Assembly: GCA_009777835.1 (NCBI GenBank)
Contig: WRKZ01000003.1
Location: 1 to 62,129, forward strand
DNA length: 62,129 nt
From: Oscillospiraceae bacterium
GTDB taxonomy: Bacteria; Bacillota; Clostridia; Oscillospirales; Ruminococcaceae
Direction: 5' to 3'
The notes under the pieces: model-generated
Seen by the model: the letters and a program-made list of their open reading frames with translations, nothing else
Told to the model about the DNA's origin: nothing
The model's database searches: none
Program-made: the position numbers and the translations under genes
Shown here: positions 17,833-53,704 of the stretch, in pieces
How the letters are laid out: each line of letters starts with the position of its first letter
Numbering within the stretch: the stretch's first letter is position 1

Positions 17833-19095
17833 ATGGGATTAATCACGAAAGCACCGCGCGGAACGCTCGACAAACTGCCCGGTGAAATCCATAAATATCA
17901 ACACATCGAAGGTCTCGCTCGTGAAATCAGCGGGCGGTACGGTTACAGAGAAATCCGTACACCGGTCTTTGAGCATACCGAGTTGTTTAAGCGAAGTGTC
18001 GGCGATACCACCGATATAGTTCAAAAGGAAATGTACACGTTCGATGACAAAAAAGGCAGAAGTCTCACCCTTAAACCGGAGGGAACGGCATCGGCTGCAC
18101 GTGCGGCAATCGAAAGCGGACTGATTAACGATGCGCTTCCGCTTAAACTCTGCTACATCACGAATTGCTATCGATACGAAGCTCCGCAAAGCGGTCGATA
18201 CAGAGAATTCACGCAGTTCGGGGCGGAAGTCTACGGGGCAAACACCCCCACTTGCGATGTTGAGTTGATTGCGCTTGCGTATGATTTATTCACCCGATTG
18301 AGAATCCCGGATGAACGGTACAAAATCGAAATCAACAGCATAGGTTGCCCGGAATGTCGTGCGGAATACCAGAAAGCATTGCGGGAATATTACGTCGGCT
18401 TCGCCGATAAACTTTGCGGTGACTGTCACGAACGTCTCAACCGAAATCCCATGCGCTTACTCGACTGTAAAGTCCCGAATTGCGGGCAGTTCAAGGAAAA
18501 CGCACCCACTATTCTCGATTACAACTGTGACCCCTGCCGTGAATTTTTCGCCGGGTTCAAATCCGGGCTGGACTCCCTTGACATTCCTTATACGGTAAAT
18601 GCACGAATCGTTCGCGGGCTTGACTATTACACCAACACCGTGTTCGAATTTGTTGCAAAAGACAACGGTTTAGTCTTCGGTGCGGGAGGAAGATACAACG
18701 GTTTAATCAAAGAATTAGGCGGAAACGCCACGGCGGCATCGGGATTTGCATTGGGAATCGAGCGGATTATTTCGTTGCCGGAAGCTGTTTTCCCACCACC
18801 GGAAACCCCCGACATCTACATCGCCGGGTTGGGTGAGGCGGCGGGTTCGCTCGCATTGAAACTGGTTCAAGGATTGCGCGGTGCAGGAGTGTGGGCAGAA
18901 TGTGACATAGTCGGCAGAAGCGTTAAGGCGCAAATGCGCTACGCCGATAAAATCGGGGCGCGGTTCAGCGTTGTAATCGGCGACAACGAAGTTGAGAGCA
19001 AGACGGCAGTGGTCAAAAATATGCAGACGAAAGAAACCCGTGAAGTCGCACTTGACTCTTTTAATTTAATGAAAGCGATTCTCCCGTTCGAATGA
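17833..19095 (+). CDS. hisS: Histidyl-tRNA synthetase
   Basis: Charges tRNA-His. The 420-residue class II enzyme shows motif 2 (CYRYEAPQSGRYREFTQFG), the histidine-binding motifs RGLDYYTNTVFE and GAGGRYNGLI, and motif 3 (GFALGIERI). The C-terminal anticodon-binding domain spans about 325-420. A CxxC pair plus further cysteines in the insertion (residues 175-240) could bind metal, as in some bacterial HisRS. AAAGGGTG lies 7 nt before the ATG. An intrinsic terminator overlaps the stop region. Confidence 0.96.
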   Translation: MGLITKAPRGTLDKLPGEIHKYQHIEGLAREISGRYGYREIRTPVFEHTELFKRSVGDTTDIVQKEMYTFDDKKGRSLTLKPEGTASAARAAIESGLINDALPLKLCYITNCYRYEAPQSGRYREFTQFGAEVYGANTPTCDVELIALAYDLFTRLRIPDERYKIEINSIGCPECRAEYQKALREYYVGFADKLCGDCHERLNRNPMRLLDCKVPNCGQFKENAPTILDYNCDPCREFFAGFKSGLDSLDIPYTVNARIVRGLDYYTNTVFEFVAKDNGLVFGAGGRYNGLIKELGGNATAASGFALGIERIISLPEAVFPPPETPDIYIAGLGEAAGSLALKLVQGLRGAGVWAECDIVGRSVKAQMRYADKIGARFSVVIGDNEVESKTAVVKNMQTKETREVALDSFNLMKAILPFE

Positions 19096-22100: not shown

Positions 22101-23250
22101 CTCTGCTATTTGCAAACGAAGCTAGCGTAGACAACAAGAAACAGTCCCCACATTTTGAGTGTGAACCCTGTTTAACATCCGATATGTTGACACCGTTTTC
22201 ACCGAAGAGAGGGGTGTCTTCCCCCATTTTAACCCAATTTATTTCTCCATGATGAAGGGTAATATCGTTTCCGCGAATTTCTTGCCCATGGTTTGCGTGT
22301 TTGAAATCCAGTCTCTCTCTTTCAACGAGTCTGGTTGCTTGTATTTTAGTAAGCTTGTCATCGGTTTTCATTTTTGCGATGACGGCATCGTTGAATTCTT
22401 TAAGCGTCTCATCTTTTTTAGAATATTTATATTTAGGGTTATCGAGCAGGTTTTCTTCCTCCGGCAACCCGAGCTTTTCTTTAATATCGCCTTCGATTTT
22501 ATCGAGAAGTTTAACCATCTGCGGCCGAATGTTCTCCTGAATTTCAATTGCTTCATTGAACACTTTATTTCTAACCAATCTTTTCACCGCTGCGGGAACA
22601 TTAGGGTCTAAACTAATATCCGCCTTTCGATTTTCGCGAATTTTCATCATGAAAATTTTTTCGTCAAACAACTTTGCATGATGCTGATATTCCGTAAGTT
22701 GGTCTAAGAGTTTAGCGGCATCGCCTTTATCTGTAATGTCATTAAGAATGATAGCCCTGTAAAAATCCAACTCTTTAACTACAGGTTGGTACACATAAGC
22801 CTTCATCAATCCTTCACGGTTTGCTGCTTTACCTTTCTTTATTTCGCCGTCAATAAAAGCCTCTGCTCTGGTATCTATTTCCTTGTCGGCAACCGCTTGG
22901 AGCATTTCCATTTGTCTTTGTCTTTCTCTTTCGACCTTCTCTTGATTTTGCTGCTCTTGCGCCCGCCTTTTTTCGAGTTTCTTGCGTTCCTTCTGTCCGA
23001 GTTCTTGCTCCTGCGGCTGCTGCTCAACCTGAACAGGCGGCGCATTCCCCTCAACCGGAACGTTCCCCAGGTTCTGAAGCTGTTCTGTCACAACCTGAGC
23101 AGTTTCATTCAGGGGAGTCCCTTCACCCAACACCTTAAAAGCATTTTCACTGTTGACTGTTCTGAGTACTTCGCGTTCTCGGATTTCTTTCTGCTCTTGT
23201 TCTGTCATGATTTCAATTTTTTTATTAAAATATGATTCTTGCGTTGTCAT
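19114..23250 (-). CDS. Calpain-like protease with duplicated helical domain and C-terminal J-domain
   Basis: The 1,378-residue protein starts at ATG 23250 (AAGGAG 9 nt upstream). Residues 1-330 are charged and largely helical. About 335-560 resemble peptidase family C2 (calpain): DVKQG with Gln361, GDC with Cys370 followed by FLLSTLASFA, APWVVMFEKAYM, His522 in QHNVAVI, and Asp542 in MRDSQ where calpains have Asn. Residues about 875-935 carry repeats of QEVPVQEQK. Two copies of a domain of about 130 residues follow (roughly 940-1065 and 1085-1215). The end is a J-domain with LLGLP and HPD (1295-1297), which would call on DnaK. No signal peptide is seen. It is the last gene of the CIS block, so a CIS cargo role is plausible but inferred. 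Confidence 0.8.
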   Translation of the reverse strand: MTTQESYFNKKIEIMTEQEQKEIREREVLRTVNSENAFKVLGEGTPLNETAQVVTEQLQNLGNVPVEGNAPPVQVEQQPQEQELGQKERKKLEKRRAQEQQNQEKVERERQRQMEMLQAVADKEIDTRAEAFIDGEIKKGKAANREGLMKAYVYQPVVKELDFYRAIILNDITDKGDAAKLLDQLTEYQHHAKLFDEKIFMMKIRENRKADISLDPNVPAAVKRLVRNKVFNEAIEIQENIRPQMVKLLDKIEGDIKEKLGLPEEENLLDNPKYKYSKKDETLKEFNDAVIAKMKTDDKLTKIQATRLVERERLDFKHANHGQEIRGNDITLHHGEINWVKMGEDTPLFGENGVNISDVKQGSHSKCGDCFLLSTLASFANSRDKARSVITDAITDNGDTVTVRFFDDDKPVFITVDKSLPINDKTNRNHSLFSQGAPWVVMFEKAYMLYRNTKVLKPNIYEHLDVGATSELAMMLLTGKPADTVYLADYRNGENDEKALCDRIHEALSSGRAVTYGNENQHNVAVIAVGQTESGYKIIMRDSQHMTKDALENDGVQEFELSALETTTTFTIEKAVETQVPVQEEEKKQEEKKIPDWVNPQWSPERQVLEMDLKALLDKHKVANLKEKAVLSQELRELNDKLTKERLKDPNIDKEFDEYEQRLKSKFAKYAETDTESEYAAVYDKLKGVKLDVANIGRLNKFLKNIYGDKNFTGKAAERQSENFEKYKDIADKIVSEYIDLINIQNKQKNISGVIDGDERHNGVWLSAAYRAKRMSPANTSERMLLLENALSYLMFEKHDVKVDEFDEDTDKLRTKEEHLILEQDFGFKTRYRKFVGEEDDAETIENVRKTKEKFELSRDTAIKQMLELEERLSKTPIQEQKQEVPVQEVKQEVPVQEQKQEVPVQEEKQKQEVPVQEQKQEVPVQEVPVQQENMQQTLYTSEQAQEKARTLGLSQKSVTSIRLFMDRYVNLDKGSAEVAEKYKGMLNRIIDEFMAVLKKYEDDPTLKGKVGELNQLRRFAAYFFKPNYSAVDFTMRDEGNLSEEGRDHEVLFEKFGYVTSSFSFKQEEEEKERLRREEEERVRDEVKKQETPYNMEQVKVIAEAAGLRGFISATHVNNVVNFVRDYVNLDKHPESAEIAVKYKDMLNRIIDEVIRVVKEYRYRLDGGGEGELNQLKRFANYFFKPNLKNADSTERDESELSESVKDGDVLVLFEKFGYEEPKLKVRLEDERKVEKANQEAEEYLRSIGYDNLESKNYYQLLGLPVNEKGSPGDVTETILEDIRKNYKKIVFKLHPDQVERIAIPADVDRGAYVEKIQDVFKLVSNAYKVLIDEEQRIWYNIDKFKTTQLGTVGGPVAKPEQEPEQKPEQKPLEIGWL

Positions 23251-23354: not shown

Positions 23355-24221
23355 CTAAAGAACCCCTAAAACACAGGAATAAACACGCGAATTCGCACCC
23401 GCAACAGCAGAATCACCTATGATTTTCTTCAACAGCTTCAACGAAGCCGAGTTAACCGCAGCGATATGCACCCGGCTTTCGTCCGAGTACTCCGCACTCA
23501 CCGCATTAAACGACCTATTCAGCATCGGCATAACATCGCCGGGGGTGGAGGTGTAAAGCCAACTCAACGAAACCGAGTCTGATTCAAGCGGTTTAATCAG
23601 AACGCATCCGCTAATTTCGCCATCTTTAAGCTTAAGCGTACTGCAACGCGGGCAAAACTCTGAAAAATCAATTTTAGAGTGAATGAAGTCATGCGGACGG
23701 CTTAAGTACGCATTAAACTTTTTTGTAAGGATTTCCGGTACTTCACCCAAGGAGACGATTCCCTCCATCGGAAGTTTCGGTAGCTTCTGCCGAGTGAAAA
23801 ACTCATTGTTTTTCAAATCCGACACTTTGACCGAATAAGACGAGTTTTTTTCGTTTGTAACAAACCCATTCGAACCGAAGAAGCTGTCAAGCACCTCAAG
23901 TTCACCCTCATCCGAACAACTGACCACATGAATCTCGCCTATATCGGCAGGAGCAAGGACTTGCTTCAGCGTTTTAATCAAGAGTGAACCTACACCCTTT
24001 CTTCTAAACGGCTCCGACACTGCCAGCCATTCAATCACCGAGCTGAACGGCGTATACCAAGCGAACATCGCACCGACTGCGATATTGCCCTCTTCGCTCT
24101 CATCGACACACCCCAAGGTCAAGGAATCCAAAACGTCCGAATCGACAACCCCCTCTTCATTTCGCGGAAGGAATCCTGCAAACATTTCTGCGTTTTCGCG
24201 GTTTACGGGAATAATTTTCAT
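23355..24221 (-). CDS. GNAT-family acetyltransferase (two-lobed)
   Basis: The 288-residue protein has an N-terminal GNAT domain whose acetyl-CoA loop reads EPFRRKGVGSLLIKTL (residues about 70-88). The second half (165-285) looks like a degenerate GNAT repeat. It contains CPRC, a possible metal or disulfide pair. GGAG lies 9 nt before the ATG. It lies 26 nt after the phosphatase gene, so it is probably in the same transcript. The substrate is unknown; modification of a CIS or regulatory protein is only a guess from position. Confidence 0.78.
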   Translation of the reverse strand: MKIIPVNRENAEMFAGFLPRNEEGVVDSDVLDSLTLGCVDESEEGNIAVGAMFAWYTPFSSVIEWLAVSEPFRRKGVGSLLIKTLKQVLAPADIGEIHVVSCSDEGELEVLDSFFGSNGFVTNEKNSSYSVKVSDLKNNEFFTRQKLPKLPMEGIVSLGEVPEILTKKFNAYLSRPHDFIHSKIDFSEFCPRCSTLKLKDGEISGCVLIKPLESDSVSLSWLYTSTPGDVMPMLNRSFNAVSAEYSDESRVHIAAVNSASLKLLKKIIGDSAVAGANSRVYSCVLGVL

Positions 24222-24247
24222 AGTTGGTATCTCCTACTATTACGTAT

Positions 24248-26899
24248 TTAAATCTTTTTCATAATCGTGAATATATTTTTGCCGTTTTTATACTCATATT
24301 CGGTCTTGTTCATCATGTCTCTCACAAGGAACAAGCCCAGTCCGCCTATTTCCCTTTCCTCAAGCGGTAGGTTAACGTCCGGCGGCGATTTCTCAAGCGG
24401 ATTATACGGTATACCCGAATCCTCGAATTCAATCACGAAGCCGCCGTCTACCCTGGTTCGTATAGTTACATCGCCGACCTTGTTCAATTCCGACTCTTGC
24501 TTTGCGTAGGCATAACTCGCAATATTCACGAAGATTTCTTCCACCGCTAACGCTATACTGAACTTATCCTCCTCCGAACAATCGGGGTTATGACTCTGCG
24601 CTTCCGTTAAGACGAACTCGGTCACTTTTTGAAGTTGTTGAATATCAGCTGCAACGTTCAAAACAGAGTCATACAACGATTCCTCCCCTTCGGAACTCTC
24701 TGTTTTATCCCCCCCTGATTTAATCAGAAGTGAAAGCATAGTTATATCATCGGCTTTTTCAGCACCGTTAGCGAAATCATCAATTTTCTTCTTGACTTTC
24801 ATAAGAAACTCTTTCGGGGGCAGACTACCGAACTTCTCGCAAACCTTAAGCAGCCTCTCGGTCGAAAACAGCTCCATCTTACGATTCACAGCTTCGGTCA
24901 CGCCATCTGTATAGAAATAAATCATGTCGCCCGAAGAAAGGTCAATTTCGCCCTGTTCATACTTCATACCGTTCATCACCGCAAGGACGAATCCCGGCTC
25001 AGTATGAAGATGCTCGCATTTTCCGTCTTTACTCTTGATAATTGGGGGTTCGTGCCCAGCATTCACATAAACGAACTTCCCTGTCTTAATGTTCAAATAC
25101 CCCATGAACGCCGTCACGAACATATTCTCGTCGTTGTTCTCGCACAGAATGTCATTCACTGTCTCAAACACTTCTTTGGGCGACTTAAGTCGATGTTTTC
25201 TGCGTTCTTTTTCAGTTTGGTCATTCACCGCCTCAAGCACTTCTTTAGATGACTTACCGTACTGCGCATTATTTTTAATCAGCGTTTTCGCAATCACCAT
25301 GAACAAAGCCGCAGGAACGCCTTTTCCCGAAACATCCGCCATGACAACCGCCAGATGAGACTCATCCACCAAAAAGAAGTCATAGAAATCCCCGCCGACC
25401 TCCTTCGCGGGCTCCATCATAGCATAAATATCGAATTCATTCATATCAGGGAAAGCCGGGAAAATGCAGGGCAACATCGATGACTGGATTTTGCGGGCAA
25501 CGTCCAATTCCGCGCCAAGCCGTTCTTTCTCCCCCGTTATCTTTGTAAGGTTATCGATGTGGTTTTTGAGTTCAAGAGACATTTTATTAATCTCCGAACC
25601 CAAGTTCTCGACCTCATCGCCGGACCTTATATCAATAACGTGATTAAGATTACCACTGGCAATCTGGCGAATACCTTCCCATAACGATATAATAGGTGCT
25701 GTCAGATGTGCCGAAAACCGACGCGACAAATAATCAACCAACAGAACAATCAGGATAACGCTCACAGCAAAAACGCCCCCGATGATAATAACCATGAAGT
25801 CAACATCGCCTTTTGCGTTATTCTTCATATCAGACATACGATTTTCTATTTCAATGGCGGGCGCATTAGCTTCCTCAACCTCTATAACGGTTGCAAGACT
25901 CCACGGTGTCGTCTTCAATGCAGCATACGCAATAAAATATTCCTTACCGTCTATATGTATGCGTTCGAAACCGCTTTTACCCGCAATCATGTTTAGCGCA
26001 ACGGCAGCCAAATCAGCGTTATCGCCATTAAGTAAATCCTTACGCACAATACTTCCGTCCGCACTGAACTCCATCTCATCGGATATGATAATCTGTCCAA
26101 GTTCATCCAACATGAACGAATATCCGGTTTCTCCGACTTTTGTCCCGATAACAAGTTGGGTCAGCTCATCCAAAAGCGTACCCACCCCGACCACACCGGC
26201 AATTTGACCGTTTTCATCGTAATACGGCTTGGCGCATGTAATAGAAAGCCCGCGGCCATATAAATCCAAAAACACATCCGACCAAATCAGACCATTGTTT
26301 TGGACTGCCCGGGTATACCACGGGCGTTCACGCGGGTCAGAATACTCAGGTTTTTTATCGGAAGATTCATCAACAATGATGGTATAACCCTGCTCCGAAC
26401 CGACATAGTTAGATGTAGCATTCACATTATTTCGAATGATGTTCAAAAGCAGACCCTGTATATTCCCCATCCGTGCCGCATCATCCGCTATCGAAAGCAA
26501 ATCCACCCCTTCCGCCACTAAAAACTGTGCCGTCATTATATCTTTATCGGCGGCATTCGGCGGTGCTACCGGGTTTGGCATGAATGCCCCCGGATTTCGC
26601 AGAATATCCCCTGCGGCATCAGAAATCATTTCGACAGAGTTTTGAACTGAAAGTAACTCCGCATCACTGAGGGCTGCCATGTTTTCCGCCAGTGTCATCA
26701 GTGATGTGCGCATTCTATCTTCCAACGCCATCTTGCTTTCCGCGGATGCCATATTGCTCATATCGTCAACAATATTAACGATGTTATCGCGCAGAACATA
26801 AAGCCCTGCCATTACAACCACAACAAAGACAACGACCGCAATCAGCGATACCCTGACGATAATGGCGAATACTTTTTTTCGCATGGGAGATTTATTCAT
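24248..26899 (-). CDS. Membrane sensor with PP2C/SpoIIE phosphatase and RsbW-like kinase domains
   Basis: The start is taken as ATG 26899 (MNKSPMRKK); an ATG 4 codons earlier is in frame, but homologous leader motifs show that this first ATG is not used in other genes. This gives 883 residues. Order: membrane helix (8-32), an extracellular dCache-like sensor (35-360), a second helix (365-388), HAMP (390-445), SpoIIE/PP2C phosphatase (480-690; VGGDFYDF, ADVSGKGVPAALF, YTDGVTEAVN) and a GHKL ATPase (730-880; EEIFVNIASYAY, GGLGLFLVRDMM). One polypeptide thus holds both the phosphatase and the anti-sigma-type kinase of a partner switch. The STAS protein encoded nearby is the natural substrate. 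A 69-bp in-frame duplication lies within the phosphatase. Confidence 0.88.
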   Translation of the reverse strand: MNKSPMRKKVFAIIVRVSLIAVVVFVVVVMAGLYVLRDNIVNIVDDMSNMASAESKMALEDRMRTSLMTLAENMAALSDAELLSVQNSVEMISDAAGDILRNPGAFMPNPVAPPNAADKDIMTAQFLVAEGVDLLSIADDAARMGNIQGLLLNIIRNNVNATSNYVGSEQGYTIIVDESSDKKPEYSDPRERPWYTRAVQNNGLIWSDVFLDLYGRGLSITCAKPYYDENGQIAGVVGVGTLLDELTQLVIGTKVGETGYSFMLDELGQIIISDEMEFSADGSIVRKDLLNGDNADLAAVALNMIAGKSGFERIHIDGKEYFIAYAALKTTPWSLATVIEVEEANAPAIEIENRMSDMKNNAKGDVDFMVIIIGGVFAVSVILIVLLVDYLSRRFSAHLTAPIISLWEGIRQIASGNLNHVIDIRSGDEVENLGSEINKMSLELKNHIDNLTKITGEKERLGAELDVARKIQSSMLPCIFPAFPDMNEFDIYAMMEPAKEVGGDFYDFFLVDESHLAVVMADVSGKGVPAALFMVIAKTLIKNNAQYGKSSKEVLEAVNDQTEKERRKHRLKSPKEVFETVNDILCENNDENMFVTAFMGYLNIKTGKFVYVNAGHEPPIIKSKDGKCEHLHTEPGFVLAVMNGMKYEQGEIDLSSGDMIYFYTDGVTEAVNRKMELFSTERLLKVCEKFGSLPPKEFLMKVKKKIDDFANGAEKADDITMLSLLIKSGGDKTESSEGEESLYDSVLNVAADIQQLQKVTEFVLTEAQSHNPDCSEEDKFSIALAVEEIFVNIASYAYAKQESELNKVGDVTIRTRVDGGFVIEFEDSGIPYNPLEKSPPDVNLPLEEREIGGLGLFLVRDMMNKTEYEYKNGKNIFTIMKKI
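25151..25255 (-). repeat. In-frame 69-bp internal duplication in the phosphatase gene
   Basis: Two copies of a segment encoding S(S/P)KEVxExVND begin 69 bp apart on the plus strand, at 25151 and 25220. The duplication adds 23 residues just before the ENMFVTAF strand of the phosphatase core. Confidence 0.7.
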
Positions 26900-26902
26900 T
26901 CT

Positions 26903-26985
26903 TATGACCATGCCTTTCTACAACTAAAATGTGGCATGAATCAAGCTTGTCAAGCCCACCTGCCCGATGACTTCGTCACCGACCG
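26903..26985 (-). repeat. Intergenic repeat module, copy near the phosphatase gene
   Basis: The gap holds GGCATGAATCAAGC, a CACCTGCCCG core and a start-site motif GAAAGGCATGGTCATAAGA. The same parts recur at 28001-28060 and 35402-35475. ATGCC upstream can pair with GGCAT overlapping the Shine-Dalgarno sequence. Confidence 0.6.
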
Positions 26986-26997
26986 GTAAACCCTTAT

Positions 26998-27996
26998 TCA
27001 AACTTCACTCACCCTTTCAAACAGACGTTGGGCAGGAACCGTTAATTGAAATTCCGCACTGTCAATCAACACACGGTTGATTTTAGACATGATTATGGTT
27101 TCCCGCTCTCCGGCAAGCGGATTCAACCCGAAGAACCTATACCCGGCAGCCCTCATCACTTCATATCCGTACACTGCACCGGGCTCACTGATGTTAAGGA
27201 GCACCATGCTTGTCTGAAGTTCGTCGGTATATTCTTTTTCAAGCATTTCCAACCGTTCGCGCAAATCCCGACCGCTGGCTATGATGTCTATGTTCAAGGT
27301 CTTATGATAATCGTCCTGTTTGTATTCAATATGACTGGTCTCGTTCAGTTTGCCGGATTCATCTGCGAATTGTACATCAGCACCCAACGATGTGTATATT
27401 TCCCGCACGAAGCCTTTCAGGTGAGAAGGGACGTATACCGTACCGCCGTTACTGCCGTCATTTTTCACATAAACAGCCCATGATATCTTTTGTGATGCTA
27501 AATTCAATTGAGCCAAATGCTTTTTTGAATCGACCGCACCAAACAGAAAGCCTGTCGGAATAAACCCCAACTTTTCATAGGCTCTGCCGCTTTGCGCATG
27601 GTACATCACCATATGCGCATAAAGCAACGAAACATCCTTTTTTTTACATTCGCTTAATACGTGTTCTGTTATAATTTGCCCAAGATTAAACCCTCTAAAT
27701 TCCGGATTAACGACAAGCGCGCCGATTTCACCACCTCTCATCCCATGATGTTTCTTGTAGGAGAGTGTGGCGGCAGGGATGCCGTCATCGGTAATTGCCG
27801 CGAACGGGACTAATTTTCCTTGCCGTATCTTTTCTCTTATAACTTCAACATCAAACATGAACGAATTTGCATAGTTGGAGGGAATCCCGTATACCGAAGC
27901 CATACAGTCAATCAAACCCCGAACCGACTGTTCGCCTTTATGAAACGTCAAATCAATCCGACGCCCGCTTTTATTAATCAATGATACCTTTTCCAT
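26998..27996 (-). CDS. GNAT-family acetyltransferase
   Basis: The 332-residue protein has a GNAT core at about 25-165: GGEIGALVVNPEFRGFNLGQ is the strand and acetyl-CoA loop, and HSQxGRAYEKLGF-like SGRAYEKLGFIPTGF is the C-terminal strand. The second half (170-332) has no clear match. It may be a second degenerate lobe. ATG 27996 is the true start, since the preceding ATGGTCATA motif is out of frame with it. It sits between the STAS gene and the phosphatase-kinase gene, suggesting a link to the regulatory switch. Confidence 0.78.
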   Translation of the reverse strand: MEKVSLINKSGRRIDLTFHKGEQSVRGLIDCMASVYGIPSNYANSFMFDVEVIREKIRQGKLVPFAAITDDGIPAATLSYKKHHGMRGGEIGALVVNPEFRGFNLGQIITEHVLSECKKKDVSLLYAHMVMYHAQSGRAYEKLGFIPTGFLFGAVDSKKHLAQLNLASQKISWAVYVKNDGSNGGTVYVPSHLKGFVREIYTSLGADVQFADESGKLNETSHIEYKQDDYHKTLNIDIIASGRDLRERLEMLEKEYTDELQTSMVLLNISEPGAVYGYEVMRAAGYRFFGLNPLAGERETIIMSKINRVLIDSAEFQLTVPAQRLFERVSEV

Positions 27997-39267: not shown

Positions 39268-42102
39268 CTAGATTCGACCTCTCCTCGCCTTTTCGAGAGA
39301 AAGCCGCCGCTCCATATTATTGTACACCTTCTCGGAAATCACGTTCATTTGCTTTGCGATTTGATTGGCAATAGTGCTGTTCACCAGGTTCGTGATATCC
39401 TCAGTGCTTTTCGCTGTCTGCTCTTGAATCATTTTATTCACCCGGGTTTCACTCAAGGTCTGATTCACGATGGTTTCGGTTTTGCTCGTCTCACCTTGAT
39501 TGGACTCACCGCTGTTACTTCGAGAAGCCAGTTTCTCAATCAACTCCTCCGAAAATCCTTGATTATCCGGCAATTTGTGTACGGTTTGGGCAGCCCCCTG
39601 AAACATTCCCGACCTCGCTTGCGTCAAAGGGGTTGCCGCACGCAGTTTCTCGGTGACTGTGTTGGTGCGTTCATACAAGGTCTGCGTTTCGGTATTAAGC
39701 CGCTCGGTCTTGTGGAATAATTCCGTTTGCGCCGTTTTCTCGAACTCCCGCATTTCGGTATTGAACAGGAGTACTTTTCTCTCCATTTCCGATTGTGATT
39801 GCGGTAAATCGCTACCCTGCCGTTGACGAACAAGGCTTTCATAAACCAACTTTGTAGCGTCATCCGCCACCGCCATTGCAATAGCTTCTTCGGGCAACAA
39901 CCGACCCAATCCCTCCAACTTATGCGACAATTTCGGCATTTGAGGGATTTTCTCCTCTTGTTCTTCTCTGCCCTGCCCTCCGCGACCGAACGCTTTTCCT
40001 GTAATCTCACCCTGCGACCGACCCATCGGCTTTTGCCCCGAAAGTATTTCCTCAACTAATCGCGTGGCTTCGTCAACCGAAGACGGTTCAATCACATCAC
40101 CGAAATCTCTCCCCGCCGCCATTTCGGTTTTATGGGTTAATTCAGTTCGATTAATCTGTTCGCCTACGTTAATCTCTTCACCGCGGGATGGTGTTTTACC
40201 ACTTTTCTGCAACGGAATCTGCGACGGCAATGTACCGGGCTTCTGCCCCAAAAGGCTCTGATAAATCAAGCGAGTAGTTTCATCCATTTTAGAGAGTTCG
40301 TCTTGGTTAAACGGCTGAAGTGTCAAGTGGGTGGTCTCGGCTTCCCCGAAAACATCCTGCAGTACATTCCTGGGAAGGGTGTCATCTGTTTCAGACTTAT
40401 CACGCAGGCTCTTCGGCAACGATTCTTCCGACCTATCACCGGGGAGTTTCAACTCACTTGCGCTTTCGATAAGTCTCTGCGCCGTCTCCCGATTGCGCCG
40501 ATCATATTCGTCTAAATATTGCTTCAATTCGTGGGTGGTTTGCGATTCCGGCTCTTCCTCCTGCAACGGCTCCCCCCCAGAAAAGTCTTCAATCCGCGAA
40601 ATATGTTCGGTGACTATATCACCGAAATTCGTGACATTTCCGTCCTGTGAATAATCTTCAACCGACTCATACAAGCTGATATTCTGCGTAATTTTCTTCG
40701 CTAAAGTGTGAGTGAAGGTATTTATATCCACCCCGCCGTCAACCGAAGAATGCGATACTTCAGTGCGGGTGTAAGGGGTTATCAAAGCCGCTTTCTCCCG
40801 ATTCAATTCTATAAGCGACCTACTGTACTCTTTATATAAATCCAATCTGCGGGGTTTTTCTACCGCTGAAACATCATCGCCGTCGTTTTTGCCCGAAAAA
40901 TCCCCCACTCCCGAATATGAATCGCTTTCTCTGTCCTCGGTAACAGCGAGAATAGTTTCGGCAGGCGAAAGCGGGTGTCCCGTGCTTATTTCCACTAAAA
41001 GAAATTCTTCGGTTTGAGAAAGTTTGCGTATTTTATCGCTGATATCACGGTCTTGTTCGCTCAAAACAGTCTTGTAAGTCCTGAACATCTGAAACCGCTG
41101 AAGTGATTTCTCTGCCGAATTGTATATAACGTTGGATATATCCAACCAGAGGTTTTCTCCGCCGATTTTCTTTTCGAGCCTTGTCGTGAACAGATTATCC
41201 ACCAGCGTAAGCAACACCCCTGCCGCACTCTGTTGAATTACTTGACTTTCGTCGGACGGCAATGGGATTTCTTCGCCGGTTTCATACCGATTTATATGAA
41301 TATGCGCAAGTTCCGCAGCCGAATCTTCGCCGATTAAATCCCGCTTGATTTCGGTAAGACTAATCAAGTCACCGGCACGAGACTGCTCTGCCGTGTGAAA
41401 TTCCGCCGCACGAACCCGATTACTGATTTCGGCTTTGTTTGAGGTGTAATTGCGCATGATTTGATAAATGTCCGACGTTTGGAGACGATTGTAAACGTCA
41501 TTATGAAGCGTGTACCGAGTTTCCGATTCATGTGTGACGTTTTGCCCGGCAGATTCGCCCCGTTTCGCTGTAAGCGTTTCCCGCACGAATTCGCCATCCC
41601 CGACGTTCGTAACGCTCTGCCGATACAAGTTCAAAAGGTTGTGTACGTTTCGACTGTCTTGACGAAGTTCCCGTACCTGTCTCATAAACAACGAAACGTC
41701 TTCAACCCCGATTTTACGCAAAAATGACGAAATATACACTTCGTCTTGATAGGTGTAGCTTGAATCGTCACTGAACAAAATCCTATTCACAACATTATTG
41801 AGTACGTTAAGCGAAAAACTCCGCGAATTACTCACATTGCTCTGAATATTGATTCCGCCCGATTCAATCGGGAATTCCGGGATTTCCGGCGGTGTATTAA
41901 TGAGGAAAAACAAATCCTCAGCCGTGAACTTCGAGTTGATTATGGAATAATTCCCGCTGATTCTGCTGTAGAACGGGTCACTTTGAATTTGCGTTTCGAC
42001 CTTTTCGGGAGATGAATCCCTTAAATTAGACGAATCCGGCGGCGAAAACAACGTTATCCGCCGCAACGAACGAAGTTCAAGCGGTTGTTTGAGTACAATC
42101 AT
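39268..42102 (-). CDS. Probable tape-measure protein
   Basis: The 944-residue protein is hydrophilic and mostly predicted helical, with no enzyme motif. It lies between the tube proteins and the hub adaptors, where contractile systems often carry their ruler. Three degenerate copies of D(E/D)(T/A)T(R/K)L(I/V)xxxLxxQ(K/R) occur about 70-80 residues apart in the second half. At about 1.5 Angstrom per helical residue the length suits a tube somewhat over 100 nm. The N-terminal 100 residues are beta/Ser-rich. The call rests on size, position and repeats, not on a family match. Confidence 0.6.
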   Translation of the reverse strand: MIVLKQPLELRSLRRITLFSPPDSSNLRDSSPEKVETQIQSDPFYSRISGNYSIINSKFTAEDLFFLINTPPEIPEFPIESGGINIQSNVSNSRSFSLNVLNNVVNRILFSDDSSYTYQDEVYISSFLRKIGVEDVSLFMRQVRELRQDSRNVHNLLNLYRQSVTNVGDGEFVRETLTAKRGESAGQNVTHESETRYTLHNDVYNRLQTSDIYQIMRNYTSNKAEISNRVRAAEFHTAEQSRAGDLISLTEIKRDLIGEDSAAELAHIHINRYETGEEIPLPSDESQVIQQSAAGVLLTLVDNLFTTRLEKKIGGENLWLDISNVIYNSAEKSLQRFQMFRTYKTVLSEQDRDISDKIRKLSQTEEFLLVEISTGHPLSPAETILAVTEDRESDSYSGVGDFSGKNDGDDVSAVEKPRRLDLYKEYSRSLIELNREKAALITPYTRTEVSHSSVDGGVDINTFTHTLAKKITQNISLYESVEDYSQDGNVTNFGDIVTEHISRIEDFSGGEPLQEEEPESQTTHELKQYLDEYDRRNRETAQRLIESASELKLPGDRSEESLPKSLRDKSETDDTLPRNVLQDVFGEAETTHLTLQPFNQDELSKMDETTRLIYQSLLGQKPGTLPSQIPLQKSGKTPSRGEEINVGEQINRTELTHKTEMAAGRDFGDVIEPSSVDEATRLVEEILSGQKPMGRSQGEITGKAFGRGGQGREEQEEKIPQMPKLSHKLEGLGRLLPEEAIAMAVADDATKLVYESLVRQRQGSDLPQSQSEMERKVLLFNTEMREFEKTAQTELFHKTERLNTETQTLYERTNTVTEKLRAATPLTQARSGMFQGAAQTVHKLPDNQGFSEELIEKLASRSNSGESNQGETSKTETIVNQTLSETRVNKMIQEQTAKSTEDITNLVNSTIANQIAKQMNVISEKVYNNMERRLSLEKARRGRI

Positions 42103-42709: not shown

Positions 42710-42937
42710 TCACATTCGGGGACTGAAATTAATATCACGCAGACTTTTTTCTTTTTTGTTTTGCTTTTCCGAGGGAGTTAAAGCGGTATTGATTGAGGAA
42801 ATTTCCGAGCACCATCGCCGTCTCGCGCTGTGTTCCAATGCGGCGACTTCGCTGTTACTCCAGTGGAAATAATACGATATGAATGCCATTTCTTTGTACA
42901 GTTCCTCTTCCGGATATAACGCTATCCCTCCGCGGTA
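42710..42937 (-). CDS. DUF6760-like extension, reached by -1 frameshift from the chaperone gene
   Basis: The frame codes for 75 residues: YRGGIALYPEEELYKEMAF, then ISYYFHWSNSEVAALEH, SARRRWCSEI and a lysine-rich tail. These match my memory of the small DUF6760 proteins that follow the chaperone in injection-system clusters. The frame has no ATG, GTG or TTG before the conserved part; a TGA blocks it just upstream at 42955-42953. It lies -1 relative to the chaperone. The heptamer A AAT TTT at 42943-42937 is in phase with the chaperone codons. Translation through it would give a fusion of 191 residues. An alternative is initiation at a rare ATA or at the inner ATG. Confidence 0.75.
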   Translation of the reverse strand, partial: YRGGIALYPEEELYKEMAFISYYFHWSNSEVAALEHSARRRWCSEISSINTALTPSEKQNKKEKSLRDINFSPRM

Positions 42938-43284
42938 AAATTTACGGGTACCTCATGCTGATGTCCACACTCGGGACAGACCGACTTGATTACCGGCGGT
43001 TCTATATTATTGATTCGCTGATACATATCCTGCAAAAACGCCAAATCCGCCGTGAATAAATTTTCGATAATCGTAGGAACTATAGTAGGGACTCCCTCCA
43101 GTTCTGTAATCACCCGTGCGAGAATCACCACTGTCAAATACGACGGATTCCCCAATACGCGCGGGTCACGGGTTGCGCCGATTTCATCTCCCGCCGTTGC
43201 AAGCCGCATTTTTCCGCGTTTGCGAACATTTCCGTCGCTATCTACAAACCCCCTCGGCAGTTCGAATTCATAAACCGTTGTCAT
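42922..43284 (-). CDS. CIS tail assembly chaperone-like protein (Mu gp41 type)
   Basis: The 120-residue protein opens with YEFELPRGFVDSDGNV and has the GDEI, DPRVLGNPSYLTVVIL and FTADLAFLQDMY segments of the tail-assembly family placed between tube genes. Its end has CPECGHQH, a possible zinc site. AAGGAGG lies 10 nt before the ATG. In phages these genes make a second, longer product by frameshifting, and the needed signal is present here: slip site at 42943-42937, a GAGGT element 6 nt upstream and a small GGATA-TATCC hairpin downstream. Confidence 0.85.
   Translation of the reverse strand: MTTVYEFELPRGFVDSDGNVRKRGKMRLATAGDEIGATRDPRVLGNPSYLTVVILARVITELEGVPTIVPTIIENLFTADLAFLQDMYQRINNIEPPVIKSVCPECGHQHEVPVNFTAEG
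42937..42943 (-). promoter_or_regulatory. Programmed -1 frameshift site A AAT TTT
   Basis: The heptamer has the form X XXY YYZ in the reading frame of the chaperone (GTA AAT TTT). It is 12 nt before the TAG stop at 42924. An internal GAGGT lies 6 nt upstream, which could act as a Shine-Dalgarno-like stimulator as in dnaX. Confidence 0.7.
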
Positions 43285-43395: not shown

Positions 43396-43929
43396 TTATT
43401 CGGCATCTCCGCCGCCGCCGCCGCCACCGCCTGTATTTGCACCATATTCCATAGGAATCAATATTTCCTCATAAGCGATTTCAACTGTTTCGATTGCAAC
43501 TTCACTCGTGGTGGAGTTCAAGTCCGCGCCGGTATACTTCGCCACCCATGCGTTTTTGAACACCCATACCATATGAGTAGCCCCCGCAGCGGAACTTACA
43601 ACCGATTGCGGCGAACCTTCGGTTATATCGATTAATTCAACCGTAACGTCCTGTCGATCGATTTTTCCCCGTCTTTCGTTCACGCAAGAAATCACCCATT
43701 CCTTGAATGCGCCGCCTTTAGTAAGACCGTACTTCAGCGTGATGTTTCCGTGTTTCACAAGTCCCGGGATTTTAATCGGTGCAAGGCTTCCTGCGTTTCC
43801 CTGCCTAAACTCGATTACATCTACGGTGGAATCGATTCCCGTTACTTCCGAGAACGCCGCGCTTCCAACGTCGCTCCCTACGGTGACCAGAAAATTCATT
43901 TTGGTCATCGGATAAAAATGTGTTCCCAT
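43396..43929 (-). CDS. CIS major inner tube protein (gp19/Afp1 type)
   Basis: Start ATG 43929 (MGTHFYPMTK), with AAGGAG 12 nt upstream; a GTG 4 codons earlier touches that site. The 177-residue protein matches the phage T4 gp19-like tube family: FSEVTGIDSTVDVIEFRQGN, the LKYGLTKGGAFKEWV segment and a C-terminal IETVEIAYEEI strand. It would stack in hexamers inside the sheath. The tail ends in eight glycines followed by DAE, encoded by a GCC-rich stretch. It lies 64 nt after the sheath gene. Confidence 0.9.
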   Translation of the reverse strand: MGTHFYPMTKMNFLVTVGSDVGSAAFSEVTGIDSTVDVIEFRQGNAGSLAPIKIPGLVKHGNITLKYGLTKGGAFKEWVISCVNERRGKIDRQDVTVELIDITEGSPQSVVSSAAGATHMVWVFKNAWVAKYTGADLNSTTSEVAIETVEIAYEEILIPMEYGANTGGGGGGGGDAE

Positions 43930-43993
43930 TTGAAAATACACTCCTTTTTTAATTAAAGTTTATTTAGTTTAGCTTTGTTTGGCTATTGTTTGA

Positions 43994-45697
43994 TTATTCT
44001 CCACCACCGGCTTCCGACGTGAACTGAGTCACACGGAATATAACAAATTCGGCAGGGCGAGAAGGTGCGATTCCTATGTTGCAGATGAGTCTGCCGTTCA
44101 TGATATCGTCCTGGCTCATCGTACCGGTTCCTATATCCACGAAATAACTTTCGCCGGGAGTTTCCCCTGCAAACATTCCCCCTCTGAACAAAGTTTCGAG
44201 GAACGACGAAATCGTCATCTGAACACGCGCCCACAGCGAAGAATTGTTCGGCTCGAAAACGACCCAATTGGTGTTGTTCTTGATGGATTCTTCCACGAAG
44301 ATGAAGAGTCTGCGGATATTCACGTACTTGAAGTTAGAGTCGGAACTTGCGGTTCTCGCTCCCCACACGCGGATTCCCTGTCCGGGCAACGCACGAATCA
44401 AGTTTACCCCAATCGGATTGAGAATGTCTTGTTCGCCCGTCGTGTAGTTGACCGACAATCCCGTACAAGCGACGGTTTCGTTAGCGGGTGCTTTGTGAAC
44501 TCCGCGCGAAATATCGGTACGCGAATACACTCCCGCTACAGAGCCTGACGGTGGGATGAACAACGGCTTCTTGGATAATCTGTCAAATACCCGAACCCAC
44601 GGATGATACATCGCCGCATAGGTAGAGTCAATCATGTTACGATACTCGGCGATTTCATCGACCTTCGTGTAAGCCGCCGGAATGTCAATCACCGCAAAAC
44701 GATTCTTTTCTCTCTCGCAGTGGGCAACCAACGAAACCACAACTTCGGGAATGGTAACACCCGGCACCGCGATTATACTGACTACGTTGTTTTCGACAAA
44801 AGCTTCGATTCCGGTACGTTTTCCCGGCCCTTTGTTTTCACCGATGAACACGCCTGCATCAACGTTAGCGGTATTTCCGTCTGTTCCCCCTGCGAATGAA
44901 ACCGTACCCTTCAAGATTCCCGTTCCGAACACCAGCGATACTGGGTTATCGATTTCGTTGGTATCTTTGATTGTAAAATTGACGGTATCACTCGAACCCA
45001 GGCGTTTTACAATGTAATTCGGTGACGATACGTTAAGCGAAACGTCATTGTACACTTCGGCAATATCATCGCAACGGACGATTATGTCCATTTCTGCCGA
45101 ATAAACGAACACTTTCGGGACTATAGCCTCGTCAACCGGGCTGGAAGCGAACGCCTTTTCAAACGTCACCGTTCTGTCGAATATAGTGGAAATTCGGTTG
45201 TACTCCCCTGCGAACTCCACGATGTCCCCTTCAGCGAATCCCGATGTAGTTTTCGCAGTGAAAACTTTGTCGTTGCCGTCATCTGCGGCAACCAACTGCA
45301 TTTTCCTCTTATTGCTCGCTATAAACGAGATGTTGATTCTGTTACCCCATTTACCTTCGTTCGTGGCGGTAAAGGTCAGAATTCCTTGCTTTGCTTTCGC
45401 GGCTTTAGCATCTGCCGGGACTACCCTGCTGATAAAGCAACGTGTTCCGCCATTTGCGAAGAACTGTTCGACACTGTAGGGCAAAAAGCGGAAATCCCCG
45501 TGGGTATATTCGCTCAAATAGCCCCCGAACTTGCGTTGGTAATCGGCGAAATTAGTTACAAGAACCGGTGCGCCGACCGACTGCCCCCTCTCGGTTAATC
45601 CGATGAATCCGGCTGTGCTTGTACCCACACCCTCGATTGAACGGGGTGATGAGTCATACTCCTCGACGTATACGCCCGGTGATAAATATTCAGCCAT
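43994..45697 (-). CDS. CIS contractile sheath protein
   Basis: The 567-residue protein begins with the sheath signature YLSPGVYVEEYDSSPRSIEG and GVGTSTAGFIGLTERG. It ends with the conserved C-terminal domain (VNIRRLFIFVEESIKNNTNWVVFEPN, SSLWARV, FFVDIG-like YFVDIGTGTMSQDDI). Contraction of this sheath drives the tube. Only one sheath gene is present, whereas Afp and PVC have several. The Shine-Dalgarno AAAGGAGG lies 40 nt before the ATG, with a hairpin in between that would shorten the effective distance to about 11 nt. Confidence 0.95.
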   Translation of the reverse strand: MAEYLSPGVYVEEYDSSPRSIEGVGTSTAGFIGLTERGQSVGAPVLVTNFADYQRKFGGYLSEYTHGDFRFLPYSVEQFFANGGTRCFISRVVPADAKAAKAKQGILTFTATNEGKWGNRINISFIASNKRKMQLVAADDGNDKVFTAKTTSGFAEGDIVEFAGEYNRISTIFDRTVTFEKAFASSPVDEAIVPKVFVYSAEMDIIVRCDDIAEVYNDVSLNVSSPNYIVKRLGSSDTVNFTIKDTNEIDNPVSLVFGTGILKGTVSFAGGTDGNTANVDAGVFIGENKGPGKRTGIEAFVENNVVSIIAVPGVTIPEVVVSLVAHCEREKNRFAVIDIPAAYTKVDEIAEYRNMIDSTYAAMYHPWVRVFDRLSKKPLFIPPSGSVAGVYSRTDISRGVHKAPANETVACTGLSVNYTTGEQDILNPIGVNLIRALPGQGIRVWGARTASSDSNFKYVNIRRLFIFVEESIKNNTNWVVFEPNNSSLWARVQMTISSFLETLFRGGMFAGETPGESYFVDIGTGTMSQDDIMNGRLICNIGIAPSRPAEFVIFRVTQFTSEAGGGE

Positions 45698-50420: not shown

Positions 50421-52463
50421 TTAACCCGGAGATTCAGTCTTGAGCATAATGGTCTGATTTTCCGTGTTAAACCGCGCTTCCCCCACGAAACCCTCATCTT
50501 TGTCGTACACCATTATCTTAACATCGTCCAACCCGGTAATCAACAGCGACAAATAGGTGAAGCTGTCCGCCGCGGGAATAAGCGCGCTGCTGTAAACGTC
50601 ATTCTCGCCATATACGATTTTGTAAAATCCCGCATTAGCCGAAACGTCAAACTCCAGCATGATTTTCGATATACTTACCTCGCCCGTTACATCGGTGGAA
50701 ATTTTATACGTACCGACCTTCCGCTCAACTTCCTCGTCACCCGACAATTCTGCTTTGGGAATCGGCAGAACATCCCGCGGAGTCGTTGTGTCAATCACAC
50801 ATTCGGCTACGAACGTATCCCCATCGAAAACCCGTACCGTCAAATCATCACTGTCCCCATTCACAAGAGTGAGGTGACGGATTCTCTTATCCGCCTCGGT
50901 TCTCTCCCCGATTTGCACCCCCTCATACCATATTTCATAATGGGTGATGTTGGGTTCAAACCCGACAGGAACATCAATTCCAAAAACGAAGGTCAAATCC
51001 GAGATGTCATTGTAAATGTAGTAATACACATCTTTTCCCGGGAGACTCAGCCCGTCGCCCATAGCATCGGTCGTAAGGGAGGTTCCTTTCAGCAGGGAAG
51101 TAATTGCACCGCAGGTCAATCGGTCGAAATTCATCAACAGTTCATTATACGAACCCATGGCATCCATAGCTTCAATCTGAATCGCCTGATAATCGTCCTG
51201 CTTCTCCTTGACTTCATCGTATTCCGCTTTGCCGATTTTATTGAGACTCAACACCCTCTCAAGCTGAACGCGGGTATCTTCTTGCGTTTTAATCATCGAA
51301 AAGGCTGCGTTCTTCGCAGTAACCAACGCTTCATAATCCGACTTGACTTGATTCGTCAAGTCCTTTTCAGCGGATTCCCGCTCTTTTCTCGCCGTATCTA
51401 ATTCCATACAAGCGGTATAGAGTGCATAAATCTCATCTTCAATGTATCGAGTTCCGCTGATTTGCCCTTTCAAAAACTCTTTTGAGAAAGTGATAAACAA
51501 AATCCGATACTTTTTATCCCACGGCTCATCAAACGTCTTTGTCATCTCATCGTACTTCAATTGAAACGCCGCAAAATCTATACTCATGCCGTTTTTTGCT
51601 GCGTTCACAAAAGGCCCGATTGGGTTCATTTTAGAACCGTACTGTTCCTTCATCAAGACTTCATACTGGTCGAGGTTCATTCGCGCCATAGACTCGGCAA
51701 TCCGCGCTTCATAAACCGTCTGATCATTGTTCAAAGTGAATTCTATAATATCCTCTAAATGTTCACGGCTGATTTCCGCCGTCTGCAAAGGGGGCAAGAA
51801 CCGATACCCGGTGGTCAAATCCAACGAAACGATATCGCCGAGTGCTTCTTTTTCACTTTGGAAATTCCGTTTCAACTGTGCGATTTCTTCTGCCAGTTTG
51901 TCAACCGACTTCTCCATTGTATCTATATCATTTTGATTTGCCAGTCCTACCGCGAACCTGGCAACGTTGCGTTCAAGTTCGAGCCGTGACAACTCCAAAA
52001 CTTCCTCTTTGAAACTGACTTTCTCCTGCAAGATGTATACCTTAAAGAAGGAGTTACTTACATCGTTCAAAACATCGAACCGTTGGTCGCTCATCTTACG
52101 CTGAAGCGTTGTGATTTCACTTGTCAAAGCGAGCGGTTTCATAACAAGTTCAAACTCTTCAATTAAATTCAGTTTTTCGGGGAGTTTAAACGATAAAAGC
52201 GGAGTCCACCGCAATGTGCGTTTGTTTTTTGCTTTCGCCTGAATCCCCTTCACTGATTCTGTATACTTCATCTTCTTGAGCAAAATCTGATTGTAGGTTT
52301 TCTGGATTTCATCGCTGTTCGCCAAAGCCAGCGACTGTGCTTGCGCTAACGAAAAGGTCTTTTCCGGGAGAGAATAATTGTTTTGCACGGTAATCGTCAA
52401 AAGCGAACCGGCGAACACCATGCACATAACGAGACTAAACAGTCTGAGTATTCGTTTTTTCAT
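50421..52463 (-). CDS. TolC-like secreted coiled-coil protein
   Basis: Start ATG 52463, with GGGGGGAG 3 nt upstream. The 680-residue protein has a signal peptide (about 1-28). Two TolC-type helical hairpins follow (SLAQAQSLALANSDEIQK near 40; VSFKEEVLELSRLELERNVARFAVGLANQNDI near 145; a second set near 340-450). A C-terminal beta region (480-680) carries two Ig-like or FN3-like repeats. TolC normally forms an outer-membrane channel, but the other genes suggest a one-membrane cell. Here it may form a coiled-coil tube or spacer in the wall. Confidence 0.75.
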   Translation of the reverse strand: MKKRILRLFSLVMCMVFAGSLLTITVQNNYSLPEKTFSLAQAQSLALANSDEIQKTYNQILLKKMKYTESVKGIQAKAKNKRTLRWTPLLSFKLPEKLNLIEEFELVMKPLALTSEITTLQRKMSDQRFDVLNDVSNSFFKVYILQEKVSFKEEVLELSRLELERNVARFAVGLANQNDIDTMEKSVDKLAEEIAQLKRNFQSEKEALGDIVSLDLTTGYRFLPPLQTAEISREHLEDIIEFTLNNDQTVYEARIAESMARMNLDQYEVLMKEQYGSKMNPIGPFVNAAKNGMSIDFAAFQLKYDEMTKTFDEPWDKKYRILFITFSKEFLKGQISGTRYIEDEIYALYTACMELDTARKERESAEKDLTNQVKSDYEALVTAKNAAFSMIKTQEDTRVQLERVLSLNKIGKAEYDEVKEKQDDYQAIQIEAMDAMGSYNELLMNFDRLTCGAITSLLKGTSLTTDAMGDGLSLPGKDVYYYIYNDISDLTFVFGIDVPVGFEPNITHYEIWYEGVQIGERTEADKRIRHLTLVNGDSDDLTVRVFDGDTFVAECVIDTTTPRDVLPIPKAELSGDEEVERKVGTYKISTDVTGEVSISKIMLEFDVSANAGFYKIVYGENDVYSSALIPAADSFTYLSLLITGLDDVKIMVYDKDEGFVGEARFNTENQTIMLKTESPG

Positions 52464-52486
52464 GCTCTCCCCCCTTTTTTCAAGAA

Positions 52487-53704
52487 TTAATCGCTTGTAA
52501 TAGCATACATAAAGAAGTTCTGTGAAGCCGAACCGGTGCAATAAAAAGTATAAAGCAATCCATCAAGCTTATATGCGAAGATGTACACGCTGAAATCCCT
52601 GTCGTAGTCGCTTACGTTGAAGACGTTATCGAAAATCGCCGTCATGGTCATATCAACGTCACCTATAATATTATCGCCGATTAGATTAATCGCCGCCGCC
52701 TCACCGAGTGTTACCCACGTTTCGCCAAAATAATCCGGTGCCCCGAAAAAATCCGTAAGCTGACTTATCGTAGCGAGATTATGACTGCCAAGCCAAATCG
52801 AACCCTCAAGAACCATCACTTTTTTAACGCTCCAGTCGGCTTCCAACGCATCCTGACCGCCATCGACTTCATACACCGCATTAATTTCCGGCATTTCGAC
52901 ACAATAATCGTCCGCCTCGGAATAAACGTTCTGTCTGCCGGTATACATTATTGAAATTTCCGATGTGGTTTTTCCGATTAACTCACTGTACAGAATGTTT
53001 CCTCGTTGAAAAGTCCCGCTGTAAATCAGCGTTGCCGCCGGATTGTACAACATTCCCTGACCGTTCCATTCCCCTCGGTGAAACTCACCGTTGTATTCGA
53101 GTGAACCCGCTAATCGGTACTGTTTTCCGTTGCCGTGATACAGATTGTCAACGAAATCTCCTTCATACCTCAGTTCGCCTGTGCTGTAGTAGAATTTTCC
53201 CTGCCCGTTATACATATTCCGGGCGAACTCGCCCTCGTACACAATTCCGCCGTTGTGGTCGAACAGTTTCCCCTGACCCTTAACCTGCCCCTTGCTGACT
53301 TCACCTACATAGGCTACATACCCGCTTCTCGCCACAATTCGTACTTCGCCTTTCGCAAACCTCAGCGGTATCGAATTATATTTATAAGTAGGAATCCCTC
53401 CCCCGCCGAACCAATCGCCCCGCGGCGCAATCGGCGATAAAACGAAAATGTAAAAGATACTCAAAATCCCTACAATTACCGTCAATGCGAACGCCAGTCG
53501 CTTGCTGACCAACCAACCGAGTATGCCGTAATAATCCTTCTTGTCGCGCGGTTTTACATCGAACAGCTTCGCAAAGAACGTCCTTATAGAGACAAGCCCT
53601 CTTGTTCTCCACCAGAGCGGACTTGTCAATAAGCGCAACTTAGTCCACAGCGAAATAAACCTTACCCTTATCGCTCCGAACATAGAATTCAAGAACCTAC
53701 CCAT
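52487..53704 (-). CDS. Membrane protein with MORN repeats
   Basis: The 405-residue protein has a basic cytoplasmic N-terminus, one membrane helix (about 70-92) and five to six MORN repeats (about 125-260; units of the form YxGEFxxGxxxGQGKxxYxxG). A C-terminal domain of about 140 residues looks like a small alpha/beta fold. MORN repeats in bacteria often bind partner proteins or lipids. GAAGGA lies 11 nt before the ATG. It follows the pseudo-cyclase gene and precedes the TolC-like gene by 23 nt. Confidence 0.85.
   Translation of the reverse strand: MGRFLNSMFGAIRVRFISLWTKLRLLTSPLWWRTRGLVSIRTFFAKLFDVKPRDKKDYYGILGWLVSKRLAFALTVIVGILSIFYIFVLSPIAPRGDWFGGGGIPTYKYNSIPLRFAKGEVRIVARSGYVAYVGEVSKGQVKGQGKLFDHNGGIVYEGEFARNMYNGQGKFYYSTGELRYEGDFVDNLYHGNGKQYRLAGSLEYNGEFHRGEWNGQGMLYNPAATLIYSGTFQRGNILYSELIGKTTSEISIMYTGRQNVYSEADDYCVEMPEINAVYEVDGGQDALEADWSVKKVMVLEGSIWLGSHNLATISQLTDFFGAPDYFGETWVTLGEAAAINLIGDNIIGDVDMTMTAIFDNVFNVSDYDRDFSVYIFAYKLDGLLYTFYCTGSASQNFFMYAITSD

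Follow-up and report, generated by a model that had tools for sequence, protein, structure and literature searches.

A putative -1 ribosomal frameshift joins a tail assembly chaperone to DUF6760 in a contractile injection system

How can a protein be made from a reading frame that has no start codon of its own? The question is raised by the end of one gene in the 62,129-nucleotide stretch of Oscillospiraceae DNA analysed here (the window), where a frame for a tail assembly chaperone closes at a TAG stop and a second frame, displaced by -1 and encoding a DUF6760 protein, already runs across that stop (Table 1). The preliminary description of this DNA proposed that the two frames are joined by programmed -1 frameshifting, as in the tails of phages, and this interpretation is supported by the comparisons reported below. 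Judged on sequence comparison, the chaperone gene very probably undergoes programmed -1 ribosomal frameshifting, a legacy of phage tails that yields a minor chaperone-DUF6760 fusion.

Table 1. Positions in the window of the chaperone gene, the overlapping frame, the candidate recoding signals and the neighbouring tail genes
Feature	Position	Strand	Remarks
-1 frame with DUF6760 (E'-like extension)	42710..42952	minus	80 codons stop to stop; stop 42710-42712
Hairpin, 5 bp, GGATA-6 nt-TATCC	42912..42927 (42927-42923 / 42916-42912)	minus	9 nt downstream of heptamer
0-frame stop TAG	42922..42924	minus	overlapping -1 codon is ATA; no ATG/GTG/TTG start
Tail assembly chaperone (G/E-like) gene	42922..43284	minus	ORF; 120 aa, TAG stop
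Slippery heptamer A AAT TTT	42937..42943	minus	12 nt before stop, in 0-frame X XXY YYZ phase
SD-like GAGGT, possible stimulator	42950..42954	minus	6 nt upstream of heptamer
Tail tube protein	43396..43941	minus	PF06841, E=5.1e-30
Tail sheath protein	43994..45697	minus	PF04984, E=1.6e-20

By its sequence context the chaperone ORF is part of a contractile injection system (CIS), as it is surrounded by matches to the sheath, tube, CIS_tube, spike, gp25, baseplate J and Pvc16 families, that to baseplate J being just at its cut-off. Head, portal and terminase genes are absent among the 27 window ORFs and the -1 frame that were searched with Pfam, a set of the larger ORFs from position 17833 rightwards. 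Several other genes on the minus strand accompany the cluster. Beside it, at 19114-23250, a 1378-aa protein combines a calpain-like protease domain (PF00648) with a DnaJ domain close to its C-terminus. Two GNAT acetyltransferases (23355-27996) enclose a large protein (24248-26911) whose matches to SiaA-like phosphatase and RsbW-like anti-sigma models both fall below cut-off. At 50421-53704 the cluster genes are adjoined by a MORN-repeat protein and by one that matches the outer-membrane efflux family PF02321. Directly after the gene that follows DUF6760 stands a 944-aa protein without a Pfam match (39268-42102), and plasmid clusters of Streptomyces and Nostoc have a long uncharacterised protein at a similar place near DUF6760.

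The chaperone gene and its TAG stop are as first described, and its 120-aa product is tail-assembly-chaperone-like by sequence and by predicted fold. It matches the tail assembly chaperone family phrog_508 (E=6.7e-8), as do 17 of 17 aligned relatives; the window's own copy has no match in Pfam and NCBIfam scans, and Phage_TAC_7 is matched by just 2 of the 17 rows (best E 3.2e-4). A tblastn search for phage homologues with one chaperone (L011) as query found none at E 1e-3. In a Foldseek search of a viral library with the AlphaFold2 model (mean pLDDT 82), T4-like baseplate-hub assembly proteins stand among the first rows, the first seven of which have an rmsd of 6-9 Å, and FS-gp41 of phage Mu comes at rank 17 (prob 1.00, E 6.4e-3). 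The best solved structure is YqbN (3klu; prob 0.90), a match that is weak because its E is 0.12.

In the -1 frame, 75 codons follow the slip site, and a Pfam scan assigns the frame to DUF6760 (PF20546, E=1e-16, 61.2 bits against a cut-off of 27). No ATG, GTG or TTG precedes the conserved domain in the window; the sole ATG of the frame lies within it, at a position where the residue is methionine at 82 of 131 loci and another at 42, with 7 unmatched by the pattern. The early reading of this frame as DUF6760-like and lacking a usable start is thus borne out. The predicted structure of DUF6760 has three helices (mean pLDDT 79) and retrieves nothing in Foldseek at E < 0.001, and a tblastn search for phage homologues with one DUF6760 query at E 1 found none. 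A link to phages emerges at the level of profiles, by which alone the window genes are connected with P2. The DUF6760 profile aligns with that of the P2 E' family in hhalign at 90.8% with a score of 34.1, the best of 100 column shuffles reaching 17.7; weaker comparisons give 70.7% with P2 E' alone and 65.7% with another DUF6760 alignment. The window's own DUF6760 has no PHROG match, and phrog_10636, a family of unknown function, is matched by P2 E' and by 12 of 19 DUF6760 rows, the window's row being outside these. We therefore regard DUF6760 as probably homologous to the C-terminal half of P2 gpE+E'.

The arrangement was followed through related loci from several sources. Genomes of the window's own phylum contain DUF6760 in 13 of 398 cases and the chaperone in 13 of 99 relatives, all of one genus, the window's genome being counted in both; the genome scan listed 80 of at least 575 confirmed relatives, which weights the sample towards close relatives of the window. 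To these were added plasmid records and viral contigs from two scans, the loci of a third viral-contig scan being left out of the counts. Both parts lie within 800 nt of each other at 139 of 142 loci (L100, L105 and L120 were dropped as lacking the pair), and 133 loci remain after removal of identical copies (L028, L059, L122, L124, L125 and L129, identical to others over 320 nt); L009, which is the same place as L001, was also dropped. DUF6760 is in the -1 frame at 131 of the 133 distinct loci, and counts are given on these 131, outside which stand L014, with an indel in the chaperone, and L137, with a truncated chaperone and DUF6760 about 0.4 kb on.

The end of the chaperone gene in the window reads GTA AAT TTT ACC GCG GAG GGA TAG, so that A AAT TTT is placed before the stop exactly as claimed. 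At all 131 loci the final 40 nt of the chaperone frame contain an in-phase slippery heptamer, defined as X XXY YYZ or a GGGGG heptamer. The same test in the two wrong phases finds one at 8 of 131 and 8 of 131 loci, and control windows 60, 100, 140, 180 and 220 nt upstream find one at 1, 16, 5, 4 and 4 of 131. The slip-site observation is correct and lies far beyond chance. Slip site, frame and overlap are kept in homologous clusters of the window's phylum, and the same arrangement recurs in plasmid records from Actinomycetota, Cyanobacteriota, Pseudomonadota, Bacillota and one haloarchaeon as well as in viral-collection contigs. The proposed comparison of homologous clusters thus returns a conserved site and a conserved frame, and among the 131 loci none combines a start of its own for the second frame with the lack of a slip site.

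The codons at the site bear a constraint of their own. Asn-Phe stands there at 90 of the 100 loci L001-L106, whose record titles are almost all Bacillota, and 90 of these 90 read xxA AAT TTT; the 90 had first been picked by their site, and the count was then repeated on all 100. The codon ahead of AAT specifies Val, Ile or Leu and ends in A in every one of the 90 (CTA 31, GTA 26, ATA 24, TTA 9), against a background elsewhere in these genes of 18% A-ending among Val/Ile/Leu codons, 49% AAT among Asn codons and 74% TTT among Phe codons. Five loci have Asp-Phe instead, with T TTT TTA or T TTT TTG as the site and a G at the end of the codon before it; the constraint therefore follows the slip site. 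The remaining five have GGGGG-type sites (4) or T TTT TTA (1). Another 31 loci, 17 on plasmids and 14 on viral contigs, include 25 with GGGGG sites; the other six have T TTT TTC (2), G GGA AAG (2, both at the far edge of the 40 nt), C CCG GGG and G GGA AAC. Loci with a GGGGG site number 29 in total, 18 of them GGGGGAA, and GGGGGAA is the commonest site among plasmid and viral-contig loci. On the best tree of the two proteins, from which the last 8 chaperone residues were omitted, the slip type has to change 7 times, and the well-supported branches require 3 or more changes for each type; several branches of this tree are long and some forks uncertain.

Loss of the extension goes together with loss of the site. 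Four chaperones have no adjacent DUF6760, and none of the four has an in-phase heptamer. Two of them, L100 and L105, are informative on this point because the chaperone is of full length with its usual Cys pair and DUF6760 is missing; in L100 (Faecalicatena), CTA TAT TCC stands where CTA AAT TTT is usual. On two cyanobacterial plasmids (L120 and L137) the chaperone ends early, before the part with the Cys pair, and has no in-phase heptamer.

How the two products would arise can be sketched as follows. Ribosomes would for the most part terminate at TAG, so that the 120-aa chaperone is released. A minority, perhaps a few percent, would instead move back by one base at A AAT TTT, where the tRNAs paired with AAU and UUU would re-pair on AAA and UUU, and would read on through DUF6760 to give a fusion of about 191 aa (116 + 75). 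If the division of labour is that of lambda G/GT and P2 E/E', the tape measure protein would be coated by the short form, tube subunits would be recruited by the DUF6760 part of the scarce long form, and the finished particle would retain neither; the frameshift may also have a part in particle length. What the sequences display is the slip site, the frame, the missing start in the window, the conservation, the co-loss and a probably homologous extension; the shift itself, its rate and its role in assembly are what we infer.

Two candidate stimulators, an SD-like GAGGT before the slip site and a small hairpin after it, had been named in the preliminary description; both are present in the window, and their role as stimulators did not find the same support as the slip site. 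GAGGT is found at 42 of the 90 A AAT TTT loci and, not being generally conserved, is weakly supported in that role; the Glu codon at its column shows a moderate preference for GAG (54 GAG to 7 GAA, against 363 to 167 elsewhere in the gene). For the hairpin, the consensus of 70 loci folds better than column shuffles (z from -1.6 to -25.8 across five segments containing the stem), at a consensus energy of -0.9 kcal/mol with an unfavourable covariance term of +0.4. Single 60-nt sequences fold about as mononucleotide shuffles do, with z +0.54 in the window, a mean of -0.61 over the 70 loci and values below -1 at 19 of 70. Stem pairs 1-5 are formed in 70, 66, 38, 70 and 69 of 70 loci and all five in 34; the third is broken in 32 of 70, and the pairs are nearly without changes on both sides, that is, they do not covary. 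The coding demands of the two frames, Glu-Gly-stop in one and (R/G)-G-I in its partner, may suffice to explain GAGGGATAA, and the hairpin is a weak candidate for a downstream stimulator.

Could the second protein be made without any shift? Start codons near the stop do exist: the -1 codon that overlaps the 0-frame stop is ATG at 9, GTG at 10 and TTG at 6 of the 131 loci (ATA at 77), and at 35 an ATG, GTG or TTG occurs somewhere from the slip site to just beyond the stop, so that separate initiation of DUF6760 is possible at these. A GGGGG run could moreover serve as Shine-Dalgarno sequence for a start at the stop, and in nine plasmid records DUF6760 is annotated separately, eight times as its own gene and once as a hypothetical protein, with starts at GTG (4), ATG (1), TTG (1, past the stop), ATA, CTG and ATT. 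If coupling were all that happens here, ribosomes would restart at the overlapping codon and make DUF6760 separately, the -1 frame being the usual short overlap of genes. We regard this as improbable, because 96 of the 131 loci, the window among them, have no such start codon near the stop, and because it leaves unexplained the heptamer at every locus, the A-ending Val/Ile/Leu codon and the loss of the heptamer where DUF6760 is lost. At 74 of the 131 the stretch between 60 nt upstream and 20 nt downstream of the stop has no start codon, and at 22 there is one solely further upstream (10-60 nt). The annotated ATA, CTG and ATT starts belong to plasmids of Nostoc (L114), Streptomyces cadmiisoli (L134) and Pseudanabaena (L136), where a frameshift would explain a frame without a start.

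A refinement compatible with the frameshift is that shifting is general and that free DUF6760 is made in addition where a lineage has an overlapping start, some such lineages being perhaps in transition from shifting to coupling. We hold it tentatively and somewhat doubt it. All 35 loci with a start codon near the stop keep the in-phase heptamer, and reinitiation may there add to shifting or replace it; the refinement has no application to the window, which lacks such a start. One of the 35 is the Haloferax larsenii plasmid locus (L117, 2986-3782), whose archaeal chaperone has a long C-terminal extension and overlaps DUF6760 at ATGA, with an in-phase G GGA AAC. This heptamer may be a chance match, since each wrong phase yields one at 8 of the 131 loci, and the lineage may have switched from shifting to coupling. 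Stuttering of RNA polymerase at a run of bases, giving a frame-shifted mRNA, is suggested by the richness of the window's site in A and T and appears to us very unlikely: the runs are A3T4 here and G5-G7 or T6 elsewhere, shorter than the runs of over 7 A or over 8 T named for transcriptional slippage in the accessible text of PMC3711429, and heptamers of mixed composition that keep strictly to the codon phase suggest an event on the ribosome. Gene decay or an error of sequencing as the source of the second frame is scarcely credible, given the same frame relation at 131 of 133 loci and a conserved protein in the -1 frame, even with the upstream indel at one locus (L014).

Programmed -1 frameshifting of the chaperone gene thus remains the reading that we prefer, and the finding is broader than was first seen: sequence comparison indicates that a phage-style chaperone frameshift has been kept in apparently phage-free injection machines. 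Going further, the chances seem to us about equal that the chaperone-DUF6760 frameshift is ancestral in a broad class of CIS in bacteria and archaea, that DUF6760 is the phage E' module, that the slip sequence (GGGGGAA, A AAT TTT, T TTT TTN) has been swapped repeatedly with its phase kept, and that the ratio of short to long form sets or licenses particle length. If the frameshift is real, injection machines took from phages not just parts but also the translational control of a ratio that helps to build the tail. DUF6760 would gain a likely role, and the odd annotated starts of DUF6760 (ATA, CTG and ATT in 3 of 9 plasmid records), or its missed annotation, would be explained. Assembly and length control of such machines would become testable by synonymous changes, and clusters re-coded for expression would lose the fusion.

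Among the matches listed in the open-access papers searched, we found no report of a frameshift in the chaperone of an extracellular CIS (eCIS) or other phage-free injection system. The word "frameshift" does not occur in the accessible main text of PMC8894136, PMC8894135, PMC10066040, PMC11566945 and PMC12210884, and the accessible parts of PMC8718954, PMC10269795, PMC9022992, PMC9024508 and PMC3711429 do not describe an eCIS chaperone frameshift; where the word occurs in what is accessible of PMC8528098 and PMC13222765, it denotes an unrelated mutation and forms part of a reference title, respectively.

Several known systems invite comparison. Related machines have a small essential protein, the spike plug Cis6/Alg6/Afp6, described as a strand plus a helix in the accessible text of PMC8894135. 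As a candidate for this plug DUF6760 was set aside, because its three-helix model is unlike that description and because a comparison with solved chains, a set that may lack plug chains, gave no convincing match (12 at E up to 10, with antibodies, ribosomal proteins and others; best 0.057, an antibody). The chaperone model finds its best Foldseek matches, though with a large rmsd, in baseplate-hub assembly proteins of T4-like phages. Such phages reportedly use a mechanism other than frameshifting, as a title of Vladimirov 2022 has it. The chaperone model also resembles FS-gp41 of Mu, whose annotated frameshift is -2. Of the three phage systems named at the outset as classic cases of frameshifting in this gene, Mu is therefore no -1 case by annotation, and P2, which is annotated as -1, and lambda (PMC5009743, in its accessible part) stand.

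Lambda G/GT and the annotated chaperones of actinophages likewise consist of a chaperone with a minor -1 frameshift extension, according to the accessible parts of PMC5009743, which state for lambda that the short form binds the tape measure protein, that a low share of the long form is needed and that neither chaperone product is present in the virion. Annotated phage frameshifts further share with the relatives studied here the GGGGGAA site, which is given as a common slip motif in the accessible text of PMC10885494 and as the putative slip site of phage phi16 in that of PMC5506516.

A near parallel is P2 E/E'. It differs in that P2 slips on T TTT TTG and the window on A AAT TTT, in that P2 builds a phage, and in that the short chaperones have no profile similarity (P2 gpE against the short chaperone gives 0.1% in hhalign, no match). 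In P2 the annotated order is sheath, tube, E, E+E' and tape measure, with E+E' annotated as a -1 frameshift product and its heptamer in phase, and in all six further P2-like phages compared E' likewise lies in -1, with an in-phase heptamer no more than 60 nt from the stop. What P2 has in common with the window is the order of sheath, tube, chaperone and extension, the -1 frame, an in-phase heptamer near the 0-frame stop and an extension whose profile is probably homologous to DUF6760.
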